A DNA stretch of 64,000 bases, taken from positions 62,001 through 126,000 of the forward strand of contig JAKALM010000006.1 in NCBI GenBank assembly GCA_021824145.1, in the 5' to 3' direction. This DNA is from Bacteroidota bacterium. GTDB taxonomy: Bacteria; Bacteroidota; Ignavibacteria; Ignavibacteriales; Ignavibacteriaceae. The notes below the pieces were generated by a model. The model saw nothing but the letters and a program-made list of their open reading frames with translations, made no database searches and was not told the DNA's origin. The position numbers and the translations under genes were made by a program. Each line of letters starts with the position of its first letter. The stretch's first letter is position 1. Below are positions 38,174 to 62,740 of the stretch, in pieces.

Positions 38174-40990
38174 ATGCATGTTTCTAAGAAAATTCGAATA
38201 CATCATAACAAAAAATTAAATCTGATTTCTAAATCAGTCGGTAGTATACTAGTATATAAATTATTGCTATTATTATTTTTGAGCTCAGTAACTTTTGCCG
38301 GTAATACAGGCAAGGTTGCTGGTAAAATTGTTGACGCTAAATCTGGAGAACCACTTCCATTTGTTAATGTAATAATAGAAGGGACTTCACTTGGTACAGC
38401 ATCGACAATAGATGGAAATTTTTCAATTATTGGTGTCCCACCTGGTATATATTCAATAAAAGCTTCAGCAGTTGGATATAATACAGAGGTTATAAAAAAT
38501 GTAAGTGTTTCAATTGATCTTACAACAAAACTAGATTTTAAGCTCTCCGAAACAAGTGTCGAATTAAAAAAAGAAATTGTTGTTACTGCTTCGAGGCCGC
38601 TTGTAACAAAAGATCTAACAGCATCAACTGCGATAATAAATTCAAAAGAAATTAATTCTTTGCCTGTTACAGAATTTCAAGAAGTCCTTCAACTTAAAGC
38701 CGGAATTGTTGGTGGTGATGTTAGAGGAGGAAGACAAGGAGAAGTAGTATATGCAATTGACGGCGTACCAGTTACAGATGTTTATGACGGATCAACTGTT
38801 GTTGATGTTAATACAAATGCAATTTCCGAACTTCAATTTGTTAGTGGTGCATTCAATGCAGAATACGGTAAAGCTTTATCTGGATATGTTAACATAGCAA
38901 CCAAAGAAGGAGAAGATGTTTATCAAGGTTCAGTTACTACATATTTTGGAGGGAATCTTAGTAATCATACAGATATTTTTAAATATATAAATCGTTTTAA
39001 TGCTTTCGCAACAAGGGACCTTGAAGGTAATTTTAGTGGACCAATTATAAAGGATTTTGCATCATTTTATCTTAATGGACGTTACAATTATAATGATGGA
39101 TGGTTAAAGGGGCAGCGTGTATATAATCCATGGGATATTACAATTAATCAAGGATCAAGCGTACCAATAGAACAAAGATATATTATCCAAAAAACTGGTG
39201 ACGGTGCAATAGTTCCTATGAATTATCATGAAAAAATTTATTTTCAAGGAAAGCTTACTTTAAAACCTTTTTCATCAGTAAAAGTAAATTACGATTATCT
39301 TCTTGATAAAGATAGATACAGAGATTACGATCAATCCTTTTCTCTAAATCCAGATGGCGACTTTAAAAAATTTCAGTACGGAAATGCGAACATACTTTCT
39401 GTAACTCATATTTTAAGCGGAAGTACTTTTTATCAAACAAGTGCTTCCTATTTCTTTAAACAGTTTAGACAATTTGTTTACGAAGACCCAAATGATCCTA
39501 GATGGACTAATTATAAATTACTAACTCAACAGCCTGCAGATGTTCCAAGTTTTAGAACAGGCGGAACTCAGAATCAACTTTTTAGAAGGACAACAGGAAC
39601 GGCAGGATTTAAATTTGATTTCACTTCCCAAGTTAGTGAGACTCATTTGATTAAAACAGGCGTGGATTTAAGCATGCATCGTTTAACTTATGACAATGTC
39701 AATCTTCTACAACCTAATAATCTTTCTGATCCTCAAATTACGCTACAGCCATTTGTTCAAATGAGAATTCCAAACATAAATGATCCTAATGAAAATATTG
39801 CAATAGATAGTTACTACAGAATGCCGGTTGAATTTTCTGCATATCTTCAAGACAAAATTGAATTAAAAGATTTAATAATAAACATCGGTTTAAGATACGA
39901 CTTCTTTCATCCGGATGGCCAATTACTATCTGACCCATCTGATCCTGATATTTATAGGCCACGTAAGTTAGAAAACCTTCAAAAAACTTTAGCCGAACGA
40001 AGAACTTATTGGTATAAAAAGCCATCGAACAAGTCACAATTTAGCCCTAGATTGGGTGTGGCTTTCCCAATTACAGATCGCGGGGTGATTCATTTTTCTT
40101 ACGGATATTTTTTCCAAATACCCAACTTTGAATATTTGTATCAGAATCAGGAATACAAGTTTGGAGCTGGTACAGGCAATCTAGGGATAGTAGGAAATCC
40201 AGATCTTAAGCCTGAACAAACTGTAAATGGTGAGGTAGGAATTCAGCAGGCAATAACAAATGATATATCTATTGATCTTACTGGCTATTTCAGAGACATT
40301 AGAAATTTAACTGGAACGCGTGCAGATGAGATTTTAATGTTTGACGGTACAGAAAGTTACAGTCAATATCAAAATACGGATTTCGGTTTTGTAAAAGGAA
40401 TAGTATTTACTTTAACTAAAAGATTATCGGATAATTGGACTGCTACTATTGACTACACGTTACAATCAGCAAAAGGTGATGCTTCCGATCCTGCTCAATT
40501 AAGAAATCAACTGGTAAGTGGAGAAATTCCTGAGCTTCAATTAGTGAGACTAAATTCAGATCAAACAAATACTATTAATATAACATTTTCTTATTCATCG
40601 CCTGAACACTGGGGTTTCAGTTTGATTGGACAATATGGAAGCGGCTTCCCATACACTCCACTTGAATCTTTAAACATTTCAACATTGTTGACAAACAGTG
40701 AAGTTAAGCCTGCAACTTATAACGTTGATCTTCGGGCATACAAAGAGATGTATCTTGATAAATTTAGATTAATGCTTTTTGCAAGAATTTACAATCTGTT
40801 TGATATAAAGAATCAGATTAACGTTTATAACGACAGCGGCCGTGCTGATTTTACAATGGAAGAATTTATTGATAGACAACGCAATCTTCCTTCTCTAGTT
40901 AATACGGTTCAAGATTATTATACCAATCCAACTTATTATTCACAGCCAAGAAGAGTGGAGATGGGTATATCAATTTATTTTAATCAATAA
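38174..40990 (+). CDS. TonB-dependent receptor with N-terminal CarboxypepD_reg-like domain (module 1)
   Basis: A 938-residue outer membrane receptor. After a long basic N-terminus and signal peptide (LLLLLFLSSVTFAG), residues about 47-130 form a CarboxypepD_reg-like domain (VAGKIVDAKSGEPLPFVNVI, ... GIYSIKASAVGYNTE). The plug follows (VVTASRPLVTKDL to EYGKALSGYVNIATKEG), then a barrel of about 650 residues ending RVEMGISIYFNQ with an aromatic-rich last strand. It resembles SusC-type importers in layout but no SusD gene follows. Instead, a large sorted protein and a PorV-like barrel follow. It should import a ligand captured at the surface, powered by TonB. Confidence 0.92.
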   Translation: MHVSKKIRIHHNKKLNLISKSVGSILVYKLLLLLFLSSVTFAGNTGKVAGKIVDAKSGEPLPFVNVIIEGTSLGTASTIDGNFSIIGVPPGIYSIKASAVGYNTEVIKNVSVSIDLTTKLDFKLSETSVELKKEIVVTASRPLVTKDLTASTAIINSKEINSLPVTEFQEVLQLKAGIVGGDVRGGRQGEVVYAIDGVPVTDVYDGSTVVDVNTNAISELQFVSGAFNAEYGKALSGYVNIATKEGEDVYQGSVTTYFGGNLSNHTDIFKYINRFNAFATRDLEGNFSGPIIKDFASFYLNGRYNYNDGWLKGQRVYNPWDITINQGSSVPIEQRYIIQKTGDGAIVPMNYHEKIYFQGKLTLKPFSSVKVNYDYLLDKDRYRDYDQSFSLNPDGDFKKFQYGNANILSVTHILSGSTFYQTSASYFFKQFRQFVYEDPNDPRWTNYKLLTQQPADVPSFRTGGTQNQLFRRTTGTAGFKFDFTSQVSETHLIKTGVDLSMHRLTYDNVNLLQPNNLSDPQITLQPFVQMRIPNINDPNENIAIDSYYRMPVEFSAYLQDKIELKDLIINIGLRYDFFHPDGQLLSDPSDPDIYRPRKLENLQKTLAERRTYWYKKPSNKSQFSPRLGVAFPITDRGVIHFSYGYFFQIPNFEYLYQNQEYKFGAGTGNLGIVGNPDLKPEQTVNGEVGIQQAITNDISIDLTGYFRDIRNLTGTRADEILMFDGTESYSQYQNTDFGFVKGIVFTLTKRLSDNWTATIDYTLQSAKGDASDPAQLRNQLVSGEIPELQLVRLNSDQTNTINITFSYSSPEHWGFSLIGQYGSGFPYTPLESLNISTLLTNSEVKPATYNVDLRAYKEMYLDKFRLMLFARIYNLFDIKNQINVYNDSGRADFTMEEFIDRQRNLPSLVNTVQDYYTNPTYYSQPRRVEMGISIYFNQ

Positions 40991-41023
40991 ATCAAACGAA
41001 AAAATATTCGGACTAATTTTAAT

Positions 41024-44000
41024 ATGAAAGTTTCTAAAATATTTATTTCAGCTTTACTTTTTGTTATGATTTTCTCATTACAAATTTTCTCGCAGATACA
41101 AAGAGGAACGCATACTGCAAGGCGTGTTGGTGTAATGAGAGGAAACCAAGTAAGAACTGTATTTACAAATTATGGTGCAATAGGTCAACCTGGAAATCAA
41201 GGTCCGATGGTTGCATGGAAATACGACAACAATGGTTATGTAGGAGATATTTCTCCTCTTGTAGGAGTTCGACTTCCTATAAAAGATTATTTTATTAATG
41301 GAATCAAGGATGGAAAGCCAGACACTTTAGTTCAAGTTGTTGTTTGCCCAATTGATAGACCTGGAGGAGGAAATAAATCTCCGGATGGAAGTACAGATTG
41401 GACATTCGAACCGATACCAGGATTTTTTAATCCAGATTTAAGAGAACTTGGAAAAGGAGTTGCAATTAGTAATCAGCCAGAAACCTGGCCTAGCTATTGG
41501 CCTGACCATCCTGATTGGATTGATGATAAAGGCAAGGTTCAATGGAACGGGTATTTTGGAAGAGGAGAAATGAATGCAGATCAAGAAACTTATTTTATGA
41601 TGGATGATCAAGCTGATGAAAAAATGTATATGCTTCATGGATTTCTTCCAGATTCGACCGATCAAACACGGAAAGGCCAGGCGCTTCAAGTTTCAGTAAG
41701 AGCTTTGCAATGGGCAAATTTTCTTGCACAAGATGTCATTTTCTGGCTCTATGATATTAAGAATGTAGGCACTTCAGTTTACGACCAAACAGCTTTTGGA
41801 TTATTGGTTGGTACTTACGTTGGTGGTGCCGGCGATGAATGGAATGATGACGCTTCTTATTTTAATATTCGCCAATCGATGACTTACTCCTGGGATTTCG
41901 ATCATTATATAAGGCCCACTGCCAATCCTAAATGGCTGCCAAACCCTAGTGCAGTTGGTTATTTAGGTTATGCATTTCTTGAATCTCCTGGCAATCCATA
42001 CGATGGAATTGATAACGATGGAGACAACAGCAGTTATACAGTTGATGCCCCATATTTTAGCGCGGCAGATTTTGACCCTCACACCGTTAAAGCAGGTGAT
42101 AAACTTGTCGTAATTGATAAAAATACTTTTAAAAGAACATCATTTATAATGCCTAATCATGATACATCAGTAGTATCGATGGGCGTAACATTTAACCTAG
42201 TTCCAGACTCTACAGTTTTATCCGAAGGTAACTTAGCGCCTGGAAATAGTACAGTCAATCCCAATGCTTATGATGGTATTGATAATAATTTGAATGGAAT
42301 TATTGATGAGAATTATCAGCTCGACTATAGACTTTTCAAACAAACTCCAAAAGGACTTGTGCTAATAGATTCGTTAAATCCCATTCAGCATAAAGATTTC
42401 ATACATGGGAAAGGATTAACTGACCCCATGATTGATGAAGCGCGGGATGACGGAATAGATAATGATAGGACTTGGGATATAGGTTCTGATGATGTAGGAA
42501 TTGATGGTATTATGGATACGCAAGATTTTGGTGAAGGCGATGGCAAACCGACTTCTGGATATCAGAAACCTGGTGTAATTCCAACAAGTCCATCAAATAA
42601 ACAAAACATTTTTGGTTTGTTGGATTCCGGCGAGCCAGGCGAGCCAAATATTGACAAGACGGATGTTCACGAATCAGATCAGATAGGAATGACGAGCTTT
42701 TATTATTTTGTTCCTTCAAGTGATATTAATATGAGTGACCAAAATGATATGTGGAAGCGTTTGCAGCCTGGCAGATTTGATGTTCCCGAAGCTGTTGTGA
42801 ATAACACAACTATACGAGGTGAAGATGGGGATTTTATTTTTGGCACTGGGTACTTTCCTTTACTGCCTAATGAAACTGAAAGATTTTCTCTTGCACTTGT
42901 ATTTGGAGATGATTTTGCAGGTGTTTTCAGAAATAAAAAAATTGCGCAGATAATTTACGATGCCAATTATAACTTTCCTAAGCCACCAGATAAACCAACT
43001 TTAACCGCAGTACCAGGTGATCATAAAGTAACACTTTATTGGGATAAAATAGCAGAAAAAACTTATGATAAAGCACTAAAGAAAAAAGACTTCGAAGGTT
43101 ATAAGATTTATAAAAGCACTGACCCAGATTTTTCAGACATAAAGACTGTTTCTAATGGGTACGGTGAGCTTGTAGACTATAAACCTTTGGTACAATATGA
43201 TTTAGTAGATGGTATAACTGGTTTCTTTAATTCTGATCCATTATTATACCAACTAAGCAGTGGAAAACCTTTTTATTTGGGTAATGATACCGGCATAAAA
43301 AATACCTTTGTTGATTATGATGTAATTAATGGAAAGACTTATTATTATGCCGTTTGCGCTTATAATACTGGAGATCAAGTAAAGTCAATATATCCTTCAG
43401 AAAACACAAAGCTTATTTCGCTTGATGCATCGGGAAAAATAACACTAGATATTAATACAGCGATGGTAACTCCAAATGCACCTGTTGCTGGATACGTGCC
43501 ACCGGAAAGCGGAATCTTATTGACGAGATTAAGCGGAGCGTCAACATCAACACCAATTGTGCAAATAATTGATCCCACAAAAGTTAAGACCACAACTTAT
43601 ACTGTAACATTTACTGATTCTCTTATACAAGGAATTCCAGTTGGTTATGCATATAATGTAATTGATTCAACTACAGGGGATACTGTTATATCAAAAAATA
43701 CTAATATGCTTGCAACAAATGGAGATATATTTAATGGAATTAATCTTTCAATAAATACAGTTTACCAGGTTCTTGATAGCTTACGATTAGATACAACGCA
43801 AAGCGGTTGGAATAATCTTCTAAATAATTTAAGTTATACAATTTCTCAATTTCATTATGGAAGCATTAATGGAATAAGATATCCTAATGATTATTTGTTC
43901 GTTTTTCATAATAGTATAACTGATACTTCATCAACTTTGCAGAAAATTTTTGGAAATAATAGTCCGCTTAAAGCTATTCCGACAAACTTTTCAGTATATG

Positions 44001-44599
44001 ATGTAACTGATAAGAATAATCCAATAAAAATTCAGTATGCTTATATAGATAAACCTGGGAATTTACAAGATACATTATCCAACTTTGATGTTGTTTATTT
44101 ATCAAACGCTGATGGTTCCAAACTTTCTTGGGGGATAACATTCCAAGGAACAAATGTTCATTACCCAGTTGAAGGAGATTCCTTGCTCTTAACATTTCAG
44201 AAACCTTTTTCAAGCAAAGATAAATTTATATACAGATCAACAAGCACACAATACAATAAAGATATTGCAAGCACAGAAATGAATTTAATAAGAGCTGTAC
44301 CAAATCCTTATGTAGTATCTAACATGTTTGAGAAACCTTTACCAGCACAAGAAAGGGGAAGAGGAGAAAGAGTAATTGATTTTATCAATTTACCCCCGAA
44401 CAGTAAAATATCAATATACACTTCAGCTGGAGAGTTGGTGAGAACAATTTATCAAGATGGTAATTATCAAACCGGAAGTGCGACGTGGGATTTAAGATCC
44501 AAAGAGGGTTTAGATGTAGCCTTTGGTGTTTATTTCTATGTTGTTGAAGCACCAGGTATTAAAGAGAAAAAATTTGGCAAGCTGGCAATAATTAAGTAA
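41024..44599 (+). CDS. Large secreted protein with Ca-binding-like repeats, Fn3 domain and VPNPY-type C-terminal domain (module 1)
   Basis: A 1191-residue exported protein with a signal peptide (FISALLFVMIFSLQIFSQ). The N-terminal 300 residues are unfamiliar. Asp/Asn-rich repeats like those in calcium-binding thrombospondin type 3 units appear near residues 325 (YDGIDNDGDNS), 415 (YDGIDNNLNGIIDEN) and 475. A fibronectin type III-like segment begins near 655 (KPTLTAVPGDHKVTLYWDKI). The C-terminal 100 residues start at LIRAVPNPYVV and end FGKLAIIK, a domain shared with the protein at 57014. I infer export and surface attachment. It follows the TonB receptor by 33 bp. Confidence 0.8.
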   Translation: MKVSKIFISALLFVMIFSLQIFSQIQRGTHTARRVGVMRGNQVRTVFTNYGAIGQPGNQGPMVAWKYDNNGYVGDISPLVGVRLPIKDYFINGIKDGKPDTLVQVVVCPIDRPGGGNKSPDGSTDWTFEPIPGFFNPDLRELGKGVAISNQPETWPSYWPDHPDWIDDKGKVQWNGYFGRGEMNADQETYFMMDDQADEKMYMLHGFLPDSTDQTRKGQALQVSVRALQWANFLAQDVIFWLYDIKNVGTSVYDQTAFGLLVGTYVGGAGDEWNDDASYFNIRQSMTYSWDFDHYIRPTANPKWLPNPSAVGYLGYAFLESPGNPYDGIDNDGDNSSYTVDAPYFSAADFDPHTVKAGDKLVVIDKNTFKRTSFIMPNHDTSVVSMGVTFNLVPDSTVLSEGNLAPGNSTVNPNAYDGIDNNLNGIIDENYQLDYRLFKQTPKGLVLIDSLNPIQHKDFIHGKGLTDPMIDEARDDGIDNDRTWDIGSDDVGIDGIMDTQDFGEGDGKPTSGYQKPGVIPTSPSNKQNIFGLLDSGEPGEPNIDKTDVHESDQIGMTSFYYFVPSSDINMSDQNDMWKRLQPGRFDVPEAVVNNTTIRGEDGDFIFGTGYFPLLPNETERFSLALVFGDDFAGVFRNKKIAQIIYDANYNFPKPPDKPTLTAVPGDHKVTLYWDKIAEKTYDKALKKKDFEGYKIYKSTDPDFSDIKTVSNGYGELVDYKPLVQYDLVDGITGFFNSDPLLYQLSSGKPFYLGNDTGIKNTFVDYDVINGKTYYYAVCAYNTGDQVKSIYPSENTKLISLDASGKITLDINTAMVTPNAPVAGYVPPESGILLTRLSGASTSTPIVQIIDPTKVKTTTYTVTFTDSLIQGIPVGYAYNVIDSTTGDTVISKNTNMLATNGDIFNGINLSINTVYQVLDSLRLDTTQSGWNNLLNNLSYTISQFHYGSINGIRYPNDYLFVFHNSITDTSSTLQKIFGNNSPLKAIPTNFSVYDVTDKNNPIKIQYAYIDKPGNLQDTLSNFDVVYLSNADGSKLSWGITFQGTNVHYPVEGDSLLLTFQKPFSSKDKFIYRSTSTQYNKDIASTEMNLIRAVPNPYVVSNMFEKPLPAQERGRGERVIDFINLPPNSKISIYTSAGELVRTIYQDGNYQTGSATWDLRSKEGLDVAFGVYFYVVEAPGIKEKKFGKLAIIK

Positions 44600-44622: not shown

Positions 44623-45630
44623 ATGAAAGTGATTTTAAAAATTTTTTTATTCTCGATTTTGTTAATTAATATTATTACGGCACAATCAAAAGTGGGCACA
44701 ACAGCAGCAAACTTTTTAACAATTCCGGAAGGATCAAGAGCTTCTGGCATGGGCGGAGCTTTTGTAGCAGTTTCTAATGATGTTACTGCAGCTTTCTGGA
44801 ATCCTGGAGGATTATCGCGCTTAACAAACAATGAATTCAGTGTTAGCCATGCTGGTTGGTTAGTTGGTACAAGTCTTAATTGGCTTGGGTTTGTATATAA
44901 GTTAGATGATGATAATGCAGTAGCAGTTAGTGTTAATCAATTATATTATGGAAGTGATGACATTACGACAGAAATGCAGCCAATGGGCACAGGTGAACAA
45001 TGGGATGCGCAGGACATTTCGGTTGGTCTTACCTATTCAAGAAACCTGACAGATAGATTTTCAATTGGAGGAACTTTCAAATTTATACAGCAAAAAATTT
45101 GGATGGAAAGCGCGTCAGGATTTGCTCTTGATTTGGGTTTATTATTCAGAACTCAGTATCAAGGTCTACAGATAGGGATGAATATTTCTAACTTTGGAAC
45201 AGAATTAAAACTAGATGGTGAAAATCTTTTAATACCCGCCGATGTAGATCCCGCCCATACCGGGAATAATAAAACTATAGCTGCAAGTCTTAATACTGAT
45301 TCTTGGCCATTGCCATTAATGTTTACAGTTGGAGTAGGGTTGAATCCGGTAGAAACAGATGATTGGAAATGGACTTTAGCAACCGACGCAATATATCCAA
45401 ATAATCAAACAGCATATTTAAATCTTGGAACAGAGCTAGTATGGAATAAAATATTTTCACTGAGAGTAGGTTATAATTCACTCTTTAAAGAAGACTCAGA
45501 ACAAAACCTGACAGCGGGGGTTGGAGTTCAATATAATGTAGGCCCATTTACAGCTAGAGCAGATTATAGTTATATGAGATTCGGGATCTTTAGTCAGATA
45601 TCAAGATATTCATTATCGATTATTTTCTAA
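44623..45630 (+). CDS. PorV/PorQ family outer membrane beta-barrel (module 1)
   Basis: A 335-residue barrel with a signal peptide ending near IITAQS. The N-terminal block TIPEGSRASGMGGAFVAVSN, followed by DVTAAFWNPGGLSRL, is characteristic of the PorV/PorQ (UPF0164) group, which resembles FadL-like barrels. In Bacteroidota, PorV is the shuttle that binds C-terminal sorting domains as cargo leaves the type IX translocon. Here it sits directly after a protein with a sorting-like domain, so a dedicated pairing is plausible. A GAGGA ribosome-binding site precedes it. It is one of two such genes in the window. Confidence 0.85.
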   Translation: MKVILKIFLFSILLINIITAQSKVGTTAANFLTIPEGSRASGMGGAFVAVSNDVTAAFWNPGGLSRLTNNEFSVSHAGWLVGTSLNWLGFVYKLDDDNAVAVSVNQLYYGSDDITTEMQPMGTGEQWDAQDISVGLTYSRNLTDRFSIGGTFKFIQQKIWMESASGFALDLGLLFRTQYQGLQIGMNISNFGTELKLDGENLLIPADVDPAHTGNNKTIAASLNTDSWPLPLMFTVGVGLNPVETDDWKWTLATDAIYPNNQTAYLNLGTELVWNKIFSLRVGYNSLFKEDSEQNLTAGVGVQYNVGPFTARADYSYMRFGIFSQISRYSLSIIF

Positions 45631-45677: not shown

Positions 45678-47210
45678 ATGAAAAAACTCTTTCTACTTGT
45701 TGTTCTTTGTATATTTGGAAGCATGTCCTATGCGCAAATTCCAATAAAATTTTCTGTTAATATGACAGTTCAAACTAAAGAAGGGAACTTTAATCCAGCA
45801 ACAGATCATATCTACATTCGTGGAAATTTTCAGAAGGCTGTTGGAGATACGATCGACTGGGGCGGTTCAACTTTTACCGCATCAGATATAAATAACGATA
45901 CCATTTATACATTAACAATAAATTTTCCTGATAGTTTATCAGGTAAATCATTTGATTACAAATTCGTAATTAACGATGGCGGGTGGGAAAATCTTCCTAC
46001 AAATTCAACATATCCTACAGGTAACAGACGTCTTGTTGTTTCATCCCCTTCCATGGTATTGCCTGTTGTTTATTATAGTGATGAAAGTGTGGTAATTGTA
46101 CCAGTGACAAACACATATAATTTCTCTGCTGATTTATCTTCTATATATGGAAGTGGAAGTGGTTTCTTTGATCCAGATCGAGATTCTGTATTACTAATGG
46201 GGCTAGATTGGGTTGGTGCTAAAGTTGTAAGTGGAAACAGAAAAATGACTGCTGATCCTTTTAGTCCATGGATGTACTCAACATCAATGGTAATTAAAGG
46301 TAATCAAGGAGATTCAACAAAATGGAAACTAAAAGCATATCCTGATAACGACTTCTTCAATTGGGGCTGGGAAGTTTCAAATGACAAATGGAATAAAATT
46401 GGTCCGGATAGTTCTGTTATTACGATTCCAACTTTTATTCCAGATATATATCCAATAAAGCCTAGGTTAACTTCAAAGGTTCAGGTACTTTTTCAAGTTA
46501 ATATGAATAATGCAATAAACCGTTACACCGGTCAAAAAATTAATGTGAAAAGTATTTTGTTTGTCGGAGTGAAAGGACAAGATTCTGTTCTTGGTTCATG
46601 GGCTGGTGATTGGCTACCATCAGATACTGCTGCAGGCAACTTAATTGTTCTAAACGATAGTGGAATTAAAGGTGATAAAGTAGCAGGCGATGGAATTTGG
46701 TCTGCAATTGTAAATTTTCCTGTTGGTGATGTCGGTGGGCCAAGTCTTTATAAGTATGGAATGTACTATGCAAATGAAGATACTGTAAATGGAGGTTATC
46801 ATCCAATGGATAATGAATTTACAGATGGCTCAGTAAATCATTATCTAAACATTAAAGTTGGTCCAATGCTTGAGATAAATGATACTTTTGGAAATGCAGC
46901 TCATGTATTTGCAACAGAAGTGAAGAAAACAGATAATCAAATTCCGATGAGATTTTCGCTTGAACAAAATTATCCTAATCCATTTAATCCAAGTACGATA
47001 ATTAAATATAGTATTCCCAAAAATCAGTTAGTTGTTTTGAAGGTTTATAATATACTTGGACAGGAAGTAGCATCATTAGTTAATAGAGAACAGAAAGCTG
47101 GAAATTATGAAGTTACATTTGATGCATCTAAACTAGCAAGCGGTGTTTACATCTACAATCTAACCTCTAGAAATATTACACTTACAAAGAAAATGATGTT
47201 ACTTAAGTGA
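45678..47210 (+). CDS. Secreted starch-binding-like protein with type A T9SS C-terminal domain (module 1)
   Basis: A 510-residue exported protein with a signal peptide (LFLLVVLCIFGSMSYAQ). Residues about 20-130 read as a carbohydrate-binding beta-sandwich (HIYIRGNFQKAVGDTIDWGG, ... YKFVINDGGWENLPTN). A second similar domain lies at about 145-250, and a third at about 260-395, so it may bind glucan at several points. The C-terminal 85 residues carry the type A sorting signal (SLEQNYPNPFNPSTIIKYSI, ... LASGVYIYNL, ending KKMMLLK). I infer a surface glycan-binding protein with a role like SusE/SusF. A terminator-like hairpin follows. Confidence 0.8.
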   Translation: MKKLFLLVVLCIFGSMSYAQIPIKFSVNMTVQTKEGNFNPATDHIYIRGNFQKAVGDTIDWGGSTFTASDINNDTIYTLTINFPDSLSGKSFDYKFVINDGGWENLPTNSTYPTGNRRLVVSSPSMVLPVVYYSDESVVIVPVTNTYNFSADLSSIYGSGSGFFDPDRDSVLLMGLDWVGAKVVSGNRKMTADPFSPWMYSTSMVIKGNQGDSTKWKLKAYPDNDFFNWGWEVSNDKWNKIGPDSSVITIPTFIPDIYPIKPRLTSKVQVLFQVNMNNAINRYTGQKINVKSILFVGVKGQDSVLGSWAGDWLPSDTAAGNLIVLNDSGIKGDKVAGDGIWSAIVNFPVGDVGGPSLYKYGMYYANEDTVNGGYHPMDNEFTDGSVNHYLNIKVGPMLEINDTFGNAAHVFATEVKKTDNQIPMRFSLEQNYPNPFNPSTIIKYSIPKNQLVVLKVYNILGQEVASLVNREQKAGNYEVTFDASKLASGVYIYNLTSRNITLTKKMMLLK

Positions 47211-53912: not shown

Positions 53913-56900
53913 ATGAGGTCATTGTTACTTTTAGGCCTTTTAACACTTTTCACATTATCAAACCTTACTTTAGCTGCTTCGGGAAAAATATCCGGGACAA
54001 TTAGAGATTCAAAAACAAAGGAACCGCTAATCGGCGCTAACATTTTGATTGAAGGAACGCAGATGGGTGCAGCTTCTGATATCAGCGGTTATTATGTTAT
54101 TTTGAATGTACCGCCAGGGACTTATAAATTGAAAGTATCCATGGTTGGCTATGCTCCAGCTTTAATTGAAAATGTGAGAGTAAATATTGACCAAACAACA
54201 AACATTGATGTTTTGTTAGAAGAAAAATCAATTCAGGCACAAGAAGTAGTAGTTGTTGCAAAAACACCAATTGTACAAAAAGACGTTGCAGCAAGCCGCG
54301 TGAACCTTGATGCCAAAGAAATTGCAAATTTACCAGTTACAAGTGTTTCGTCTGTTGTTGGACTACAAGCTGGTATTGAATCCGGATTAGTAATTAGAAG
54401 TGGAGATGCAAGCCAAACAGGATTTATGTTAAACGGTTTGACCCTGCGTGATGAACGTGATAATACTCCATTTACTGGAATAAGCTATACGTCAATATCT
54501 GAAGTACAAGTTCAAACCGGCGGTTTCAGCGCTGAATATGGAGATATCCGTTCGGGATTAGTTAATGTAGTAACCCAAGATCCGGGAAGAAATAAATATA
54601 CATTTAGTATGATTGCTCAGTACAGCGGAGCTAACCCAAAACATTTTGGCAGTTCACCAAATTCTTTAGACTCTTATTGGATACGGCCATATGTTGATGG
54701 GCCTGTTGCTATGTATGGAACTCAAGCAATAAATCCTGCTACGGGTAAACCATATTGGGATGCAAATACTCAATTACAATATCCGCAATGGGAAGGCTGG
54801 ATTTCATATACAAATAAGCTATTAAAAGATGGCAATCCGAACAATGATTTAACGCCTCAAGCTGCAGAAAAATTATTTTTATGGCAGCACAGAAAAGATG
54901 TAAACATAACACAACCTGATTATACATTTGACGCATCATTTGGCGGGCCAGTACCAGTTGTGAGCGATGCATTAGGAGGACTAAGATTTTTAGCATCATA
55001 TAGAACCACTCAAACCGAATATATGATTCCATTAGCAACAACTGGAGTTAATGAATTTACAGGACAATTAAAAATAACTTCAGATATAGGTGAAGGTAAA
55101 AAATTATTAATCCAAGGATTATTGGCAAGAGTTAATGGAACGAATAACAATAATTCTGGATTGCCAGGATATTTTACCGATGCAAATTCAGAAGCTTCTG
55201 CATTAAGTCAAGTAAGTTTTATCGATTCAAGAATTTTTACAAATGACTATTGGGCACCTACATCTAAAGATATTAATTCTTTAAGTGCAAAGTATACTCA
55301 ATTTATAAATCCAACTTCATTTTATGAAGTCCAATTGAGTACATTCGGTTCGAAGTACAACACGAATCCAGGCTTACCAAGAGATACAAGTTCTATCTAC
55401 TTGTTTGGGAATAATTATTATGTAGATGAAGCTCCATTTGGATTTATAACTAATCCATCTACAGCAATTGGCGGAATGAGAATGAGTGTAGGCTTTAGCA
55501 ATTCTAGAGATACCAGCACTGTTCAGGAATATAATTTAAGATTTGATTACCAAAGCCAATTAGATAAATATAACGAAGTAAAAACCGGAGCTGAGTTTAA
55601 TTATACAGATAACAATGTAAACTCTGGTTCTGTTGATGTTTATTTACCTAACGGAAGGTTCACATCAAAATGGCACACGTTCCCAATACGAGGTGCTTTA
55701 TATGCTCAAGATAAATTAGAGTTTGAAGGAATGATTGCAACTCTTGGTTTACGTTTAGATTATTCTGATCCTAACGGCTACTGGTATCAATTTCCTGCAT
55801 ATCCTTCAGCTTTTGCAGCAGCATCATCTCCAGTAAATTTTGATACCATTCTTGCCAGAGTGAAAGCTATTAAACAGCTAGACCTTTCGCCAAGATTAGC
55901 AATCTCTTTTCCAATAACTGATAACAGCAAATTATATTTCAACTACGGACACTTTAGACAAATGCCTACACCTGATAACTTATATTTAATAAGAAGATTT
56001 TCTGACAATAATGCTGTTACTCGTGTTGCTAATCCGGATGCACCATTGCCTAAAACTATTGCATATGAACTTGGTTACGAACAAAATGTTTTTGACCAGT
56101 TTTTAGTAAGGCTTGCTGGTTATTATAAAGATAACTCACTGCAATCCATGACAGTTAATTATGTTAGTTCCGATAACAAAGTAAATTATAATATAGTTGA
56201 ACCAAATAATTATAATGATACAAGAGGATTTGAATTAACAATTTCAAAGAATAGAGGGAATTGGATTCAAGGATTTGTTAATTATACATACGATGTTAAT
56301 ACTTCGGGTAATTTTGGATTTGGTACATATTATCAAAATCCATCTGACCAAAGAAGCTATGAAGCAACAACGCAATCTTACTATCAATCAAAGCCAATTC
56401 CAACTCCATATGCTAGAGCTAATATAGATTTCTTCACACCTTCGGATTTTGGCCCTAAAGTTGGCGGAAATAATATTTTTGGTGATTGGAGAATCAGTTT
56501 TGTAGGATCTTGGAGTTCTGGATACTGGTTTACATGGGCAGGCGGCGGAAGCATTCCGGGAATTCAAAATAACGTTCAATGGAGGGACTACTGGAATGCG
56601 AATTTACAAATTACAAAGTCGATTAATGTATTTGGAATTGATCTGCAATTTTACTGCTTGATTAATAATTTATTCAATTATAAGTATATGTCACAATACG
56701 GATTCTACGATGCAAACGATTACATACTTTATATGAAGTCCTTGCATTTGCCAGCAGCAATTGGAAATCAATTAGGGTATGGGAATATTCCAGGTAATGA
56801 CCGACCAGGTGATTATAGAATTGGCCCTTATATTCCTTGGGATCCAAATGCATCACAAGCACAGAAAAATGTTTGGCTAAGGAATAAATCATATATAGAT

Positions 56901-56984
56901 ATGCCGAACTTGACTTATTCAACGTTCCTTAATCCTAGACAAATATTCTGGGGATTAAAATTAAATTTTGCGATAAAAGATTAA
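53913..56984 (+). CDS. TonB-dependent receptor with CarboxypepD_reg-like domain (module 2)
   Basis: A 1023-residue outer membrane receptor with a signal peptide (LLLLGLLTLFTLSNLTLAA). Residues about 24-110 are CarboxypepD_reg-like (ISGTIRDSKTKEPLIGANIL, ... GTYKLKVSMVGYAPALIENV). The plug runs from VVVVAKTPIVQKDVAASRV to EYGDIRSGLVNVVTQDPG, and a barrel follows, ending FWGLKLNFAIKD. It has the same layout as the module 1 receptor but differs in length and detail, so it may carry another ligand. As in module 1, no SusD gene follows; the next genes are a secreted protein and a PorV-like barrel. Confidence 0.92.
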   Translation: MRSLLLLGLLTLFTLSNLTLAASGKISGTIRDSKTKEPLIGANILIEGTQMGAASDISGYYVILNVPPGTYKLKVSMVGYAPALIENVRVNIDQTTNIDVLLEEKSIQAQEVVVVAKTPIVQKDVAASRVNLDAKEIANLPVTSVSSVVGLQAGIESGLVIRSGDASQTGFMLNGLTLRDERDNTPFTGISYTSISEVQVQTGGFSAEYGDIRSGLVNVVTQDPGRNKYTFSMIAQYSGANPKHFGSSPNSLDSYWIRPYVDGPVAMYGTQAINPATGKPYWDANTQLQYPQWEGWISYTNKLLKDGNPNNDLTPQAAEKLFLWQHRKDVNITQPDYTFDASFGGPVPVVSDALGGLRFLASYRTTQTEYMIPLATTGVNEFTGQLKITSDIGEGKKLLIQGLLARVNGTNNNNSGLPGYFTDANSEASALSQVSFIDSRIFTNDYWAPTSKDINSLSAKYTQFINPTSFYEVQLSTFGSKYNTNPGLPRDTSSIYLFGNNYYVDEAPFGFITNPSTAIGGMRMSVGFSNSRDTSTVQEYNLRFDYQSQLDKYNEVKTGAEFNYTDNNVNSGSVDVYLPNGRFTSKWHTFPIRGALYAQDKLEFEGMIATLGLRLDYSDPNGYWYQFPAYPSAFAAASSPVNFDTILARVKAIKQLDLSPRLAISFPITDNSKLYFNYGHFRQMPTPDNLYLIRRFSDNNAVTRVANPDAPLPKTIAYELGYEQNVFDQFLVRLAGYYKDNSLQSMTVNYVSSDNKVNYNIVEPNNYNDTRGFELTISKNRGNWIQGFVNYTYDVNTSGNFGFGTYYQNPSDQRSYEATTQSYYQSKPIPTPYARANIDFFTPSDFGPKVGGNNIFGDWRISFVGSWSSGYWFTWAGGGSIPGIQNNVQWRDYWNANLQITKSINVFGIDLQFYCLINNLFNYKYMSQYGFYDANDYILYMKSLHLPAAIGNQLGYGNIPGNDRPGDYRIGPYIPWDPNASQAQKNVWLRNKSYIDMPNLTYSTFLNPRQIFWGLKLNFAIKD

Positions 56985-57013: not shown

Positions 57014-59041
57014 ATGAAATTAGAAAGTAAAATAAAATATTTAGCTATCATTCTTTTCGGCTGCCTGATCTTAATGCCAGGCAAAGCTAAGGCGCAATAT
57101 AATAATAAATGGATGACTGCCGGATCATTCCAGGATTGGTATTCTGAAATTGGCTGTGAAGTGGAAGAAGGATTTGTTAAACAGCAGCAATATGGAGGGC
57201 AGTGGCCTGCAATCCACCCGAATCAGGACAGCAAAGCAGCACGAGGTTTATGGATTGGCGCAACAAACTTTACTGATGAAAAAAATGCCACTTGGCAATA
57301 TAAAGTTGTTCATGTTGGCCCACGTGTAACAGGCGGTGGTGAATTTTTCCCTAAAAGTTTTCAGTTAATTACAAGATTTGATATGCCGCAGGTTTATGTA
57401 GATGGATCTCCATCAGTAAACCATCCTACAGAAGTTGATGCTGTCGATCCTTCGATAAAAGCAGATATGGAAATTGTTAATGTGGTTAATACTCAGCTTG
57501 GACTAACAATGACAAGAAAAATTTATCAATTCAGCCAGCCTGAAAATGATAATTATATGATATATGACTATACTTTTACAAATACAGGAATTACTGATGG
57601 GTCTAGTAAAGTACTTAATAACACTTTAACAGGCGTATATTTCTTCTGGCAATATAGAAATGCTTCTAATGAAGAAACAAGATATGAAATTGGTAATGCA
57701 ACGGGCTGGGGAATTAACACAATGAATGATGCTCGCGGTGATGGCGCTAATAATATTGCACTATATAAAGATCCTCCTGACCAGCAATTTAGAGCTCAGT
57801 GGTCATATCATGGACATTATCCTCCGTTTACAGCTTACGATAATATTGGCGGACCTTTATGGACAATAGCCACATATGTACCTAAGGGAGATACAGTTGG
57901 AAGATTGTCTGCAATTCAGTTTTACGGAGTTGTAACATTACATGCAGATAAGTCTGCTGAAGATACAACTGATGATGTAAGCCAGCCTTCAACAACAAAC
58001 TACTTTGGTTCTGATGATCCTTATGAATCGAATAATGATTCATTTAATCCAACTAAAATGCAGGGTGAATATACTATAATGTCTAGCGGGCATGAATCTC
58101 CAAGACATGTTTGGAAAGTTCAGCCTGATGGTAAATTTGATCAGCCAACTGGTGACCCATCATTAGGAACAACAGGAGGTTTTTCATTTGCAAATGGTTA
58201 TGGCCCATACACAATCAAACCAGGAGAATCAGTTCATATAGTAATGGCAGAAGGAGTAGGAGGACTGAGTAGAGATGCTGCAACAAGAGTTGGAATACAA
58301 TATAAATCTGGACAAATAACTGCAAAAGCAAAAAATGATTCAGTTTTAACAGGCCAAGATTCTCTTTTCCAAACCTTTAGAAGAGCATTGGCAAATTATA
58401 ACAGCGGTTATAATATTCCACAGCCTCCATTACCTCCAAAATCATTTAATGTAAATTCAGGCGGTGATAGGATTTCACTTACGTGGGATGTATATAATGC
58501 AAGTGATCCGAATTTAAAAGGATTTAATATATACAGAGCGACAGGCCAATATGACAGCACATATCATTTGATTGATCAAGCTGGACCGAGCGATAGAAGT
58601 TTTGATGATACCACACCAATAAGAGGTATTTCATATTATTATTATATAACAGCTGTGGGAAATAACGGGTTAGAGAGCAGTGAATATTTTACTCAAACAT
58701 ATGACCCGGCTACATTAAAACGTCAAGCTGGTACTTCAATGGATCAAATAAGAGTTGTTCCGAATCCATATAATATTTCTGCAGCTAAGTCATTAGGATT
58801 TGGAAATCAGCAAGCAAATAGGTTAGCATTCTTTAACATTCCTGGTCAATGTACAATCCGTATTTATACTGAAATTGGCGAGTTGATTTATACAATCAAT
58901 CATACTGATGGAAGCGGTGATGCATATTGGGATTCAGTAACTTCTTCACAACAATTAGTTGTAAGCGGAGTTTATATAGCAGTTATTGATAATACCAAGA
59001 CCGGTGAAAGAAAAATTTTAAAATTTGTAGTAATTAGATAA
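57014..59041 (+). CDS. Secreted protein with Fn3 domain and VPNPY-type C-terminal domain (module 2)
   Basis: A 675-residue exported protein with a signal peptide ending near AKAQYN. The middle is unfamiliar beta-rich sequence. A fibronectin type III-like domain at about 475-570 (PKSFNVNSGGDRISLTWDVY, ... YYYYITAVGNNGLESSEYF) precedes a C-terminal domain that begins QIRVVPNPYNIS at about 578 and ends ILKFVVIR. This C-terminal block is clearly related to that of the 1191-residue protein at 41024 and occupies the same place after a TonB receptor. I infer a surface partner of the receptor. AGAGGA precedes the ATG. Confidence 0.8.
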   Translation: MKLESKIKYLAIILFGCLILMPGKAKAQYNNKWMTAGSFQDWYSEIGCEVEEGFVKQQQYGGQWPAIHPNQDSKAARGLWIGATNFTDEKNATWQYKVVHVGPRVTGGGEFFPKSFQLITRFDMPQVYVDGSPSVNHPTEVDAVDPSIKADMEIVNVVNTQLGLTMTRKIYQFSQPENDNYMIYDYTFTNTGITDGSSKVLNNTLTGVYFFWQYRNASNEETRYEIGNATGWGINTMNDARGDGANNIALYKDPPDQQFRAQWSYHGHYPPFTAYDNIGGPLWTIATYVPKGDTVGRLSAIQFYGVVTLHADKSAEDTTDDVSQPSTTNYFGSDDPYESNNDSFNPTKMQGEYTIMSSGHESPRHVWKVQPDGKFDQPTGDPSLGTTGGFSFANGYGPYTIKPGESVHIVMAEGVGGLSRDAATRVGIQYKSGQITAKAKNDSVLTGQDSLFQTFRRALANYNSGYNIPQPPLPPKSFNVNSGGDRISLTWDVYNASDPNLKGFNIYRATGQYDSTYHLIDQAGPSDRSFDDTTPIRGISYYYYITAVGNNGLESSEYFTQTYDPATLKRQAGTSMDQIRVVPNPYNISAAKSLGFGNQQANRLAFFNIPGQCTIRIYTEIGELIYTINHTDGSGDAYWDSVTSSQQLVVSGVYIAVIDNTKTGERKILKFVVIR

Positions 59042-59059
59042 TCTGGAATAATACAAAAG

Positions 59060-60088
59060 ATGAGTATTATAATGAAAAAAAATATTATAACAGCAGTTTT
59101 AATCTGCTTAATTACATTAAACTTAACTTCATTAAATTTTGGCCAGCAACAGAAACTAGCACAAACTGGAATGAAGTTTTTAAGCTTGTCCTTGGATGCA
59201 AGAGCAACCGGTTTCGGAGGCGGAGTTACCGCAGATGAAGGCGGTGCAGCTTCGATATTTTATAATCCAGCGGGTATTGCACGCCTCGATAATTTAGCAA
59301 GTGTAACATTAGGCCGTGTAAGTTATATAGCAGATATAAATTATAATTATGCAGGTATTGCTTTAGCCCCATATAATGGAGATTACGGAGTAATAGGAAT
59401 TTCATTCATGAATGTTGATTATGGAAGCCTTCAAGGAACAGTAAGAGCCAATAATGATCAAGGATTTGTTGATGTTGGAACTTTCAGTCCTTCAGCATAT
59501 GCATTTGGATTAGGATATTCGAAAGCATTATCGGAGAAATTTGCCGTAGGCGGTGATGTTCGATATGTACATCAAGATTTAGGATCGAGCGTTGTTAATA
59601 CAGATGCAAGCGGAAATTATATTTCAGAAGTTAATAAGACAAATGTATTGTCCTTTGACTTTGGAATAATTTATAAAACAGGATTTAAAAGCTTAGATTT
59701 TGGAATGGACGTTCGAAACTTTTCAAGGGAAGTTACCTATAAACAGGAAAGTTTCCAACTGCCATTGATATTTAAGATCGGTTTATCAATGAATGTCCTT
59801 GATTTGTTAGATAATGTGGATAGAGATATGCACTCGTTATTAATTTGTATTGATGCTTCTCATCCTAGAGATTATCCAGAACAAATAAGTTTTGGCGGTG
59901 AATATACTTTTATGAAATTAGTTTCGTTGAGAGTTGGATATGTAGCTCCAACAGATGTAGAGGGAATTGATGCCGGTATTGGAATTAAACATTCCTTTGC
60001 GGGCTATAATTTCTCGTTTGATTATTCATTCACACAAAATAAAGTTTTTGCAAGCGAGCACCGATTTACTCTTGGCTTTGCCTTATAA
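59060..60088 (+). CDS. PorV/PorQ family outer membrane beta-barrel (module 2)
   Basis: A 342-residue barrel. SLSLDARATGFGGGVTADEG, followed by GAASIFYNPAGIARL, is the PorV/PorQ N-terminal block, and the barrel ends with an aromatic strand (HRFTLGFAL). The start could be the ATG at 59060 or the one at 59072, four residues later; both precede a signal peptide. It resembles the barrel at 44623 in length and position, following the VPNPY-type protein by 18 bp. The repeated pairing suggests a cargo/shuttle relationship. Confidence 0.85.
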   Translation: MSIIMKKNIITAVLICLITLNLTSLNFGQQQKLAQTGMKFLSLSLDARATGFGGGVTADEGGAASIFYNPAGIARLDNLASVTLGRVSYIADINYNYAGIALAPYNGDYGVIGISFMNVDYGSLQGTVRANNDQGFVDVGTFSPSAYAFGLGYSKALSEKFAVGGDVRYVHQDLGSSVVNTDASGNYISEVNKTNVLSFDFGIIYKTGFKSLDFGMDVRNFSREVTYKQESFQLPLIFKIGLSMNVLDLLDNVDRDMHSLLICIDASHPRDYPEQISFGGEYTFMKLVSLRVGYVAPTDVEGIDAGIGIKHSFAGYNFSFDYSFTQNKVFASEHRFTLGFAL

Positions 60089-60136: not shown

Positions 60137-61381
60137 ATGAAAAAATTTCTTTACAATTATTTATTTATCAGCGTAATAGCAACTGGAATATTTTTATTAG
60201 CCTTTACCGGATGTACTGATAAAGGAGCTCCGAGTTTATTTCAAGGTGTGCCAACCGGACCGATTGGCGCAACTCCATCTATAACGTCTATATCGCCTTC
60301 AGTAGCATTAGCTGGGGTTACACAAATTACAATTACTGGGCAAAATTTTTCGACTGATCCGACACAGGATTTAGTATATTTTAACGGAATTCCAGTAACT
60401 GTCAGCAGTGCAACTTCAACGCAGCTTGTACTAACTTCTCCTAATGTTATAGGAGATTCTGTAGGAATAAGAGTTGCGGTATTGAATGCTGAAATGTTTA
60501 GCAACACTGTTTCAATTACGCAAAAAGCCTCTTCAAAAGATTTTTATCCTGGAGCTAAAGACCAGTCGGATGTTCCAATGAGTATAGTCTCAGACAATTT
60601 AGGAAATATATACTCATCAAATAATGCACTTGGTGTTTATCAAATTACACCAGACAGCACAATTTCATTATACTCACCAAAAGGCGGAGAAACTTTTTGG
60701 TCGAGCATGAGATTTGGTCCTGGCGGAGTAATGTATTGCGCCAGAGGATTACAGGCAATATTTACAATACCAGCTGGCGGCGGGGTTAAAAATTCCACAT
60801 GGCTTGTACTTCCAAGTACAATTAAAATATCTCAATTAGAATTTGATCCACTTGGCAATTTATGGGCTGCTGGTAAAAATTCGGTAATATATAGAATTAA
60901 GCAAGATAAAAGCTTTGTTACATTCCCATTTGCTGCTAACGTAACGGCAATGAGAGTTTTTGTTTCAGGCGGTACAACTTATTTATATGTTGCAGCTCAA
61001 ACAGATTCGCTGACAACGATACAAAGAATGCCAATTGATGCAAATGGAAACCTTGGCACTGCTGAAACCTATTTTGATTTTTCTAAAAATTATGGTGCAA
61101 ACTGGGTTGTGAATGGATTGGATTTTTCAGCAGATGGTGAAATGTTTTTAGCAACTAATATGTCACAACCACTAATTTATGTAAACACTGATAAATCTAC
61201 CGGAGCTCTTTATCCTGGTGTTATTCAAAATTCTCCAGCATTAGGATTGATTTGGGGTTCGGGTAATTATCTTTATTATATAAGAAGACAAATTAATGAT
61301 GCAACAGGTGCATTTCTTGTTCCGCAAACAATTGTTAGATTAGATATTCTTAAACCAGGTGCTCCATATTATGGACAATAA
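60137..61381 (+). CDS. IPT/TIG-domain lipoprotein with beta-propeller-like domain (module 2)
   Basis: A 414-residue lipoprotein (signal LLAFTGCTDKG). An IPT/TIG immunoglobulin-like domain spans about 45-125: PSITSISPSVALAGVTQITI, then GQNFSTDPTQDLVYFNG. The remainder has NHL/propeller-like repeats (SIVSDNLGNIYSSNNALGVY, LEFDPLGNLWAAGKNSVIYR, GLDFSADGEMFLATNMS). Lipoproteins with IPT domains followed by a propeller serve as surface glycan-binding proteins in Bacteroidota saccharide loci, which is the likely role here. It stands 48 bp after the PorV-like gene. Confidence 0.8.
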   Translation: MKKFLYNYLFISVIATGIFLLAFTGCTDKGAPSLFQGVPTGPIGATPSITSISPSVALAGVTQITITGQNFSTDPTQDLVYFNGIPVTVSSATSTQLVLTSPNVIGDSVGIRVAVLNAEMFSNTVSITQKASSKDFYPGAKDQSDVPMSIVSDNLGNIYSSNNALGVYQITPDSTISLYSPKGGETFWSSMRFGPGGVMYCARGLQAIFTIPAGGGVKNSTWLVLPSTIKISQLEFDPLGNLWAAGKNSVIYRIKQDKSFVTFPFAANVTAMRVFVSGGTTYLYVAAQTDSLTTIQRMPIDANGNLGTAETYFDFSKNYGANWVVNGLDFSADGEMFLATNMSQPLIYVNTDKSTGALYPGVIQNSPALGLIWGSGNYLYYIRRQINDATGAFLVPQTIVRLDILKPGAPYYGQ

Positions 61382-61423
61382 ATTTCTTAATCGGTAAATT
61401 ATCACAAAAAAAAGGAGTAATAC

Positions 61424-62740
61424 ATGAAAAGATTCGTTTCCACATTGTTCGTGTTTGCGTTATTTTTTAGCGCTACAGCATTCTCACAGGGGTGGACATT
61501 TAATGGGTATTTCCCAGACACTACTTTTAAAGGTGGTACTGGAGGGCATGGTATAGCTGTTTCTCCTGATGGAAAAGTTTGGGCTCAGTTATATGGTGCA
61601 ACAGATAGTATAAAACAAGCTAATGGAACATATGGCTCTGTAAGAGACATTTATGTTTGGAACTCAAACGGAAGCAAAGCTTCTTTTGCCCCGATTCAAA
61701 CAGTTACTGTTGGCGGTGTTACAGATACACTATGGAACAGCAACAGAGGTATGAGAGAAGATAATAATGGCAACATTCTTTTCTCTTCATTTGATGCTTT
61801 ATATCGTGTAGACTATAAGACAGGCGCTGGTATGAATAAATTCTTATACCCCAGCGGTACTGGCGGTCAGACCTTAACAGCTCCTGCAGTTGATGCAGCC
61901 GGTGATATTTTTGTCGCACCAGTTATACCAGCTAATCCAATTCAAATTATAGGAACAGATTTTTCATTCACTGGAAATGCAGTTGATTCTACTGTTGGTT
62001 ATTCAAGAACTTTAGAAGTTTCACCTGACGGAAATACAATTTATTGGTGTGGATATACAAATAATGCTGTTTGGGTATTTACAAGATCAGATATCTTTTC
62101 ACCATATGTTATTACAGATACAGTGATGAAAGGATTTCAATGTGAGTCAATCGGTTGGAACCCAGTTAATGGTTACTTGTGGGCAAGTTCAGGTTCAAAT
62201 GCTGGCGGATTACCAAATCAATATCCTGGAGTAACAACAAGTTATACATATCCAACATGGTACGCATGGGATACAAAAACTTGGACAGTAAAAGACAGTA
62301 TTCACTGGAATTTATGGACTCCAACTGATGACGCAAGACCAAGAGGTATTGCATTCAGTCCTGATGGAAATACTGCTTACGTTACTTGCTTTGGTGCAAG
62401 CACCTATCCAGCAATTGAAAAATTCACTAATCCTCATCCATACACAGCAGTTAAGAATGAAAATCCTGGTGTTGTTACTAATTATACACTTTCACAGAAT
62501 TATCCAAATCCATTTAACCCATCAACAGAGATCAATTACTCAGTTGTAAAACCAGGATTTGTTACATTGAAAGTTTATGATTTACTTGGTAAAGAAGTTG
62601 CAACATTGGTTAACCAAAATCAGTCATCTGGTAACTTTACAGTTAACTTCAATGCAAACAAACTTGCATCAGGTACATACATTTATCAGTTGAATGTAAA
62701 CGGTGTTGTAATTTCTAAGAAGATGACTCTCCTGAAGTAA
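61424..62740 (+). CDS. Secreted propeller-like protein with type A T9SS C-terminal domain (module 2)
   Basis: A 438-residue exported protein with a signal peptide (FVFALFFSATAFSQ). Residues 20-345 have propeller-like repeats (HGIAVSPDGKVWAQLYG, LEVSPDGNTIYWCGYTNNAV, GIAFSPDGNTAYVTCFGAST). The C-terminal 85 residues are a type A sorting signal: TLSQNYPNPFNPSTEINYSV, VYDLLGKEVATLVNQNQ and LASGTYIYQLNVNGVV. It is probably a surface-bound ligand-binding protein paralogous in fold to the lipoprotein before it. An AAAGGAG ribosome-binding site lies before the ATG and a terminator follows. Confidence 0.82.
   Translation: MKRFVSTLFVFALFFSATAFSQGWTFNGYFPDTTFKGGTGGHGIAVSPDGKVWAQLYGATDSIKQANGTYGSVRDIYVWNSNGSKASFAPIQTVTVGGVTDTLWNSNRGMREDNNGNILFSSFDALYRVDYKTGAGMNKFLYPSGTGGQTLTAPAVDAAGDIFVAPVIPANPIQIIGTDFSFTGNAVDSTVGYSRTLEVSPDGNTIYWCGYTNNAVWVFTRSDIFSPYVITDTVMKGFQCESIGWNPVNGYLWASSGSNAGGLPNQYPGVTTSYTYPTWYAWDTKTWTVKDSIHWNLWTPTDDARPRGIAFSPDGNTAYVTCFGASTYPAIEKFTNPHPYTAVKNENPGVVTNYTLSQNYPNPFNPSTEINYSVVKPGFVTLKVYDLLGKEVATLVNQNQSSGNFTVNFNANKLASGTYIYQLNVNGVVISKKMTLLK

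Follow-up and report, generated by a model that had tools for sequence, protein, structure and literature searches.

How do outer membranes with few SusC/SusD pairs admit glycans? SusCD genes were scarcely detected in the sugar-gene clusters of metagenome-assembled genomes (MAGs) of Ignavibacteriales and those of Ca. Kapabacteria lacked them (PMC10576277), which leaves the glycan uptake route of such bacteria open. The question arises in a concrete form in a 64,000-nt stretch of an Ignavibacteriaceae genome (contig JAKALM010000006.1, positions 62,001-126,000 of the forward strand, assembly GCA_021824145.1; hereafter the window, to whose positions all coordinates refer), which holds two modules composed of a TonB-dependent receptor (TB), a VPNPY protein (VP) with a VPNPY-type C-terminal domain (CTD) and a PorV/PorQ-family barrel (PV). 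This triplet recurs in many Bacteroidota-related bacteria, is near-invariant in related loci and appears to be a so far undescribed alternative to the SusC/SusD pair. We lean, by a small measure, towards reading it as an uptake unit in which the VP, exported by the type IX secretion system (T9SS), would be anchored by its own PV via the CTD and would partner the TB in glycan import.

A three-gene unit and its conservation

Module 1 comprises TB1 (38174..40990), VP1 (1191 amino acids; 41024..44599) and PV1 (44623..45630), and module 2 comprises TB2 (53913..56984), VP2 (675 amino acids; 57014..59041) and PV2 (59060..60088). Both triplets are co-directional on the forward strand with intergenic gaps of 18-33 bases, and the gene boundaries agree with the order TB, VP, PV that a first-pass annotation of the window had read at 38174-47210 and again at 53913-62740. 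CarbopepD_reg_2 and Plug domains scored above the Pfam cut-offs in both receptors, the barrel model PF00593 matched TB1 only, and neither receptor is a SusC by the curated cut-off of the SusC/RagA model TIGR04056 (58.2 bits for TB1 and 68.3 bits for TB2, cut-off 368.25). PV1 and PV2 passed the PorV/PorQ family model NF033709 (216.5 and 188.7 bits, cut-off 90) and remained below the equivalog cut-offs for PorV (NF033710; 102.3 and 91.4 bits, cut-off 250), PorQ (NF033711; 128.2 and 81.1 bits, cut-off 220) and PorV2. No Pfam or NCBIfam family scored above cut-off for VP1 or VP2.

The source genome (3.48 Mb, 37 contigs, 95% complete), whose neighbourhoods were first read only by loose blastp to the window proteins, contains nine TB/VP/PV sets, two of them rearranged. 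The order TB-VP-PV occurs at seven places, namely the two modules of the window and the loci L021, L023, L024, L026 and L028 (L numbers designate the loci compared, G a genome, with G000 the source genome, and C a contig). L027 has the order PV-TB-VP, and L022 is a rearranged cluster with all three genes. A CTD profile made from eight VPs of the source genome and six VPs of relatives scored these eight at 104.7-155.9 bits, as expected by construction; the next-best place, at 50.8 bits, was the VP of L022, which was outside the profile, and the tenth and the rest reached at most 45.3 bits. No VPNPY-type CTD scoring like those of the sets was found outside them in the source genome. By hand count, 20 frames of at least 700 amino acids in this genome carry CarbopepD_reg_2, nine of which are the module receptors. 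Distance matrices of the nine paralogous sets are strongly correlated (TB-PV, r = 0.948; TB-VP body, 0.945; TB-CTD, 0.869; PV-CTD, 0.856; 0/5000 permutations for each of the six matrix pairs), part of this agreement stemming from the split between type-1 and type-2 sets. Two side observations concern these loci: at L022 (positions 3907-14679, G000:C1) a 508-amino-acid lipoprotein of no assigned family, for which neither Pfam (E 0.01) nor the PDB (E 1) gave a match, lies between a T9SS protein and the receptor, and L186 (positions 6173-9343, G000:C19) encodes a solitary 1056-amino-acid receptor, broadly of the module type, next to which neither a VP nor a PV was found.

In 84,980 species genomes scanned, at least 508 VP1-type relatives were found, of which the best 80 were taken for locus comparison. 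These belong to Ignavibacteria and to records labelled Neomarinimicrobiota, Kryptonia, KSB1, WOR-3, Stahlbacteria, Cloacimonetes and Calditrichota, labels that may err since most are MAGs; MAGs labelled Ignavibacterium and Melioribacteraceae are among the carriers of the module. The exact order TB-VP-PV was found in 67 of the 80 loci; eight others are cut by contig ends (five end before the PV and three start after the TB), three have one or two open reading frames (ORFs) before the PV, and two have a split or doubled VP. The Calditrichota locus is cut before the PV. Median intergenic gaps in the relatives were 8 and 10 bases in an earlier, cruder gene picking. In families outside the class Ignavibacteria, all 20 loci sampled had the three genes, 18 of them in the exact order. 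All three were likewise present in 20 of 20 VP2-type loci, taken one per genome, mostly from the top-scoring matches and with weaker matches left out: 14 have the exact order, four have PV-TB-VP and two have one ORF between VP and PV. A further sample took the PV as its starting point and comprised 30 loci from the best matches to a PV profile in 11 genomes, three of the loci being from the source genome, the only one in which lower-scoring PVs were retained. In 28 of the 30, the reading frame directly upstream of the PV has a VPNPY CTD (78-152 bits); L197 stops at a contig edge, and L209, whose CTD match reached 23 bits, is of the L029 type described below. The triplet is thus conserved in related genomes, and the pairing of VP, PV and TB as a gene unit is well supported, as is the earlier suggestion of a secreted surface protein with a PorV-like barrel of its own. 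In L092 and L099, both labelled WOR-3, a second VP-like gene lies near the triplet.

The VPNPY protein and its barrel

Structure models of VP1 (from 59 VP1 sequences of the 80 loci plus own copies; predicted local distance difference test score (pLDDT) 85.7) and VP2 (25 sequences; pLDDT 82.6) are beta-rich with few helices, and have in common a beta-supersandwich as in GH15 and GH94 glucan enzymes. In VP1 this N-terminal domain (amino acids 31-646; 41114..42961) was aligned by VIA-align with dextran dextrinase 9ju0 (Z 19.0, root-mean-square deviation (rmsd) 3.0, 261 residues aligned, the alignment extending to amino acid 811) and glucodextranase 1ug9 (Z 18.7, rmsd 3.1, 239 aligned), while amino acids 36-648 matched 9ayu (Z 14.9, rmsd 3.0, 210 aligned). 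In VP2 (amino acids 25-468; 57086..58417) the best counterparts were 8rf9 (Z 18.8, rmsd 3.2, 254 aligned), 9ju0 (Z 18.7, rmsd 3.6, 258 aligned) and GH94 phosphorylases (Z about 18). The supersandwich stood out in this pass and not in the Foldseek ranking, where the highest-ranked matches for VP1 and VP2 alike were mainly Fn3-type chains of several domains and poor TM-score, with PorZ heading the VP1 list; the VP1 profile found nothing among PDB sequences up to E 10. Glucan enzymes with this supersandwich carry an (alpha/alpha)6 catalytic domain, for which the few helices of the VP models leave no room. The Fn3 segment of the first-pass annotation is present in both models, though without a Pfam match at E 0.01: in VP1 at amino acids 654-819 (42983..43480; many Fn3 chains at Z about 9, rmsd 2-3, about 90 aligned) and in VP2 at amino acids 469-569 (58418..58720; 2w1n, Z 11.8, rmsd 2.1, 89 aligned). 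Comparison of the VP1-type and VP2-type profiles gave an alignment over the CTD only; despite this, the models suggest that both modules of the window share one VP architecture. Of 108 VPs, 100 have a hydrophobic run at the N-terminus and three show a lipobox-like pattern. We considered whether the VP is a hidden SusD, and the models rule this out, for their supersandwich is unlike the helical (TPR) SusD fold.

The CTD of VP1 (amino acids 1078-1191; 44255..44599) has the Ig-like fold of T9SS CTDs, matching that of PorZ (5m11) with Z 11.8 and rmsd 2.1 over 92 aligned residues at 23% identity in VIA-align. That of VP2 (58724..59041) lies inside a Foldseek match to the same PorZ structure (E 5.7e-7, over 218 columns). 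PorZ was also the one significant match of the CTD profile in the PDB (E 6.9e-6), and gingipain CTDs were not listed up to E 10 in that search. The translocon itself is present, since SprA was found in one frame (TIGR04189, 1067 bits) that ends about 4.4 kb before the window. Elsewhere in the source genome are a true PorV (257.6 bits, cut-off 250), adjoining the C25 peptidase PorU, and a true PorQ (255.5 bits, cut-off 220), and the nine module PVs are therefore extra. With a profile made from these nine, the nine themselves reached 368-508 bits, compared with 145.6 bits for PorQ and 105.5 bits for PorV. The PorV family has 13 matches above cut-off in this genome, the four outside the modules being PorV, PorQ, one of the L029 pair and L030; no module-type receptor was found with a receptor profile in the stretches retrieved around PorV, PorQ, the L029 pair, L030 and L031. 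A tree was built from 39 barrels, and in it the type-2 PVs (three from the source genome and seven sampled beside VP2 in relatives) form one clade (100/99). It does not establish a single origin of all module PVs: they split from PorV and PorQ (93/91), but L029b and L030 fall among them, with long branches. PorZ and PorU keep their CTDs, bound to PorQ and PorV, respectively (PMC10202324), and cargo with type B CTDs has dedicated barrels, PorP/SprF (PMC9143113, PMC12618676). On these grounds we regard the PV as the likely shuttle and anchor of its VP, with the CTD probably retained. As a separate observation, L029 (positions 11914-13834, G000:C35) encodes a tandem pair of divergent barrels of the PorV family, preceded by a protein with a T9SS CTD and with no TonB receptor found beside them, and adjacent barrel pairs of this family also occur in relatives (G149:C180, G171:C15, G019:C13, G009:C8 and G151:C103).

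Genomic context and SusD

Module 1 is preceded by a two-component pair and, directly upstream, by a sodium:solute symporter gene (36581..38068). Downstream of PV1 and on the same forward strand are genes for a 510-amino-acid protein with a type A T9SS CTD (45678..47210), which by its position is a SusE/F analogue and has CBM20-matching homologues in relatives, an (alpha/alpha)6 glycosidase-type protein (47252..49981; PF17389, 40.9 bits) and a GH66 protein of the dextranase/CITase family with a type A T9SS CTD (50026..52113; PF13199, 648 bits; PF18962, 35.7 bits). Uptake genes are clustered here with carbohydrate-active enzymes and sugar-binding proteins, as in a polysaccharide utilization locus (PUL), by virtue of the symporter and these three proteins. 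Because of the GH66, the starch-binding-type protein and the glucan-enzyme-like domain of VP1, the substrate of module 1 is likely an alpha-1,6- or mixed alpha-glucan. Fourth genes of VP1-type loci had a T9SS CTD match in 41 of 43 cases and a CBM20 match in 20 of 43 (E 0.01). The 43 proteins are 41 of 54 same-strand fourth genes and two from the source genome, the 13 dropped being L038 (transporter-like), L066 (a near-duplicate) and others that were short, truncated or without visible CTD, which biases the count of 41 upward. PV2 is followed, also on the forward strand, by genes for a TIG-domain, lipoprotein-like protein (TIG414; 60137..61381; homologues in 17 of 20 type-2 loci) and a beta-propeller-like protein with a type A T9SS CTD (61424..62740; 13 of 20), and then by a GHL10 gene at 62897 that gives module 2 a PUL-type context. 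Between the modules, 52707-53471 encodes a 254-amino-acid protein with a signal-like N-terminus, for which neither Pfam nor NCBIfam gave a match at E 0.01.

Outside the class, genes for parvulin isomerases of about 480-580 amino acids flank several triplets (L116, L118, L120, L121, L122, L123, L127 and others), accounting for 7 of 10 neighbours in one outside-class set and 3 of 27 in the other. Because the T9SS translocon includes a PPI subunit (PMC10994853), these isomerases may serve VP export.

The first-pass annotation had held that neither receptor has a SusD and that the other genes replace it. The absence stands, extending to the whole source genome, in which the SusD models PF07980, PF14322 and PF12771 gave 0 matches each. 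The replacement is not supported in that form. In 148 Bacteroidota genomes, SusD was found in 80 (E 0.001; 79 above cut-off) and VP1 in 63 (E 1e-20), and cross-tabulation by hand gave 35 genomes with both, 28 with VP only, 45 with SusD only and 40 with neither. Mutual exclusion was thus rejected across the phylum, the two occurring independently. In the window's family and order, VP1 was present in 16 of 16 genomes and SusD in 3 of 16; the SusC-SusD-SusE starch operon reported in a Melioribacter genome (PMC3534657) agrees with the presence of SusD in some members of the order. For 15 genomes that have both SusD and VP1, 0 of 33 VP places, among the matches listed, lay within about 70 kb of a SusD match on the same contig. 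Given this independent occurrence and the lack of side-by-side placement, the module is an alternative to SusD and not its genome-wide substitute.

Proposed function and known systems

The uptake reading builds on the gene set, its conservation, the predicted VP folds and the co-inheritance. In each module, T9SS rather than a SusD lipoprotein would put the surface subunit in place at the outer membrane. The VP, made with a Sec signal, would pass the outer membrane by way of the SprA translocon, to be collected by the PV encoded next to it, which would recognise the VPNPY-type CTD. By keeping this CTD uncleaved, as PorQ does with PorZ, the PV would anchor the VP on the cell surface, where the supersandwich could bind oligosaccharides for import by the neighbouring receptor. 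The VP would thus serve the TB as a glycan-binding partner, as SusD serves SusC.

Several findings weigh against this proposal. The VPNPY-type CTDs called in the first-pass annotation stand as far as the PorZ-like fold of VP1 goes but fall below every curated CTD cut-off: TIGR04183 gave VP1 16.3 bits (cut-off 23) and did not list VP2, the type A model PF18962 listed neither VP, and of the type B models TIGR04131 was absent at E 0.01 and PF13585 gave 22.5 and 17.8 bits (cut-off 27). PorU (E 0.11) was no better a PDB match of the CTD profile than flagellar FlgD (E 0.13), and therefore only the likeness to PorZ counts. Since the supersandwich is also found in epimerases and lyases among the VIA-align matches, binding rather than catalysis by the VP is a guess. 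GH66 homologues occur in only 3 of 80 VP1-type and 1 of 20 type-2 loci; the link to dextran is therefore local, and the substrate must differ between loci. The sugar context weakens outside the class, where 37 neighbours included, among the matches listed, 11 type A T9SS CTD proteins, 10 parvulin isomerases, two CBM20 and two LacI proteins. Gene order differs in L116, L119, L166-L169, L178, L179, L022 and L027, SusD is present in 35 of the 63 VP-bearing genomes, and a simple TonB-box-like pattern was seen in 70 of 108 TBs. Finally, co-inheritance demonstrates a unit rather than contact, and the TB-CTD correlation is no lower than that of PV and CTD, so that VP-PV binding is not singled out.

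A tentative alternative, distinctly less probable than not, is that VP and PV form a dedicated T9SS cargo-shuttle pair, the VP acting as an independent surface enzyme or binder and the TB being merely co-transcribed and importing the same substrate. Type B CTDs and PorP/SprF are a known case of T9SS cargo paired with a barrel (PMC9143113, PMC12618676), the VP fold is common to sugar enzymes and epimerases, and the same loci hold other T9SS proteins; yet the TB is linked as strictly as the PV, adjoining the VP in each of the 77 loci, out of 80, in which the sequence extends upstream, and occurring in all 20 outside the class, and its distances track those of VP and PV. The receptor might otherwise aid export or assembly of the VP, in which case the module would serve secretion and not uptake. 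The Oar receptor has been reported to take part in PopC export in Myxococcus, and TB1, but not TB2, matches above cut-off (39.8 bits) OMP_b-brl_4, which we take to be an Oar-type family; the parvulin isomerases beside a number of outside-class triplets would also fit. We consider this improbable, as the T9SS translocon and the T9SS-type CTD fold of VP1 make a second exporter unneeded, and module 1 sits among symporter, GH66 and starch-binding-type genes. It seems similarly doubtful that the PV is a FadL-type channel for hydrophobic substrates while the VP uses the general PorV: the FadL/TodX matches of the PVs are weak and fall short of the cut-off (25.2 and 24.6 bits, cut-off 29.7), whereas VPs and module PVs are equal in number in the source genome, the PV clade follows VP type, and a VPNPY CTD adjoins nearly every PV of the PV-first sample.

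If the uptake reading is true, the TB-VP-PV module is a concrete, testable answer to how glycans are taken up in SusCD-poor Ignavibacteriales and Kapabacteria, and many so far unannotated proteins of uncultured phyla would gain a probable role. PorV/PorQ barrels would then be a diversified anchor toolkit, which fits the suggestion in a review that cognate PorV-like barrels protect the CTD from cleavage (PMC10202324). What is new is the combination of known parts, a TonB receptor, a T9SS cargo and a PorV/PorQ barrel, in one fixed unit; among the matches listed in the open-licence literature, we found no title or abstract opening on such a triplet.

The closest functional parallel is the SusC-SusD system, as in FjDexUL of Flavobacterium johnsoniae (PMC10316084), with which the modules share a TonB receptor with an N-terminal CarboxypepD domain, an adjoining gene for a surface partner, a SusE/F-like protein, GH66 in module 1 and, likely, glycan uptake. 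The F. johnsoniae dextran locus has the order SusC, SusD, SusE, GH66 (PMC10316084), and module 1 is alike, with VP and PV in the place of SusD. The modules differ in having no SusD, a beta-supersandwich T9SS-type cargo instead of a helical lipoprotein as partner, an extra PorV/PorQ-family barrel and a receptor below the SusC cut-off. PorZ-PorQ resembles VP-PV in joining a T9SS-exported surface protein to a barrel of this family, and PorZ provides the only significant PDB match of the VP CTD; here, however, there are nine paralogous sets, each with a TonB receptor, the VP has a supersandwich, the PV is below the PorQ cut-off, and retention of the CTD, described for PorZ, is for the VP a suggestion from likeness. 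As with type B CTD cargo and PorP/SprF-like barrels, the cargo gene adjoins that of its own barrel and anchoring is proposed, but the module barrel is of the PorV/PorQ family, the CTD folds like that of PorZ, and a TonB receptor is linked, unlike the setting of the type B cargos studied, which are known or predicted adhesins. In BamG-BamH of the Bacteroidota BAM complex (PMC12611786, PMC12578637), a FadL-like barrel likewise anchors an extracellular subunit beside another barrel, the difference being that BamH is a lipoprotein and the function is barrel assembly.

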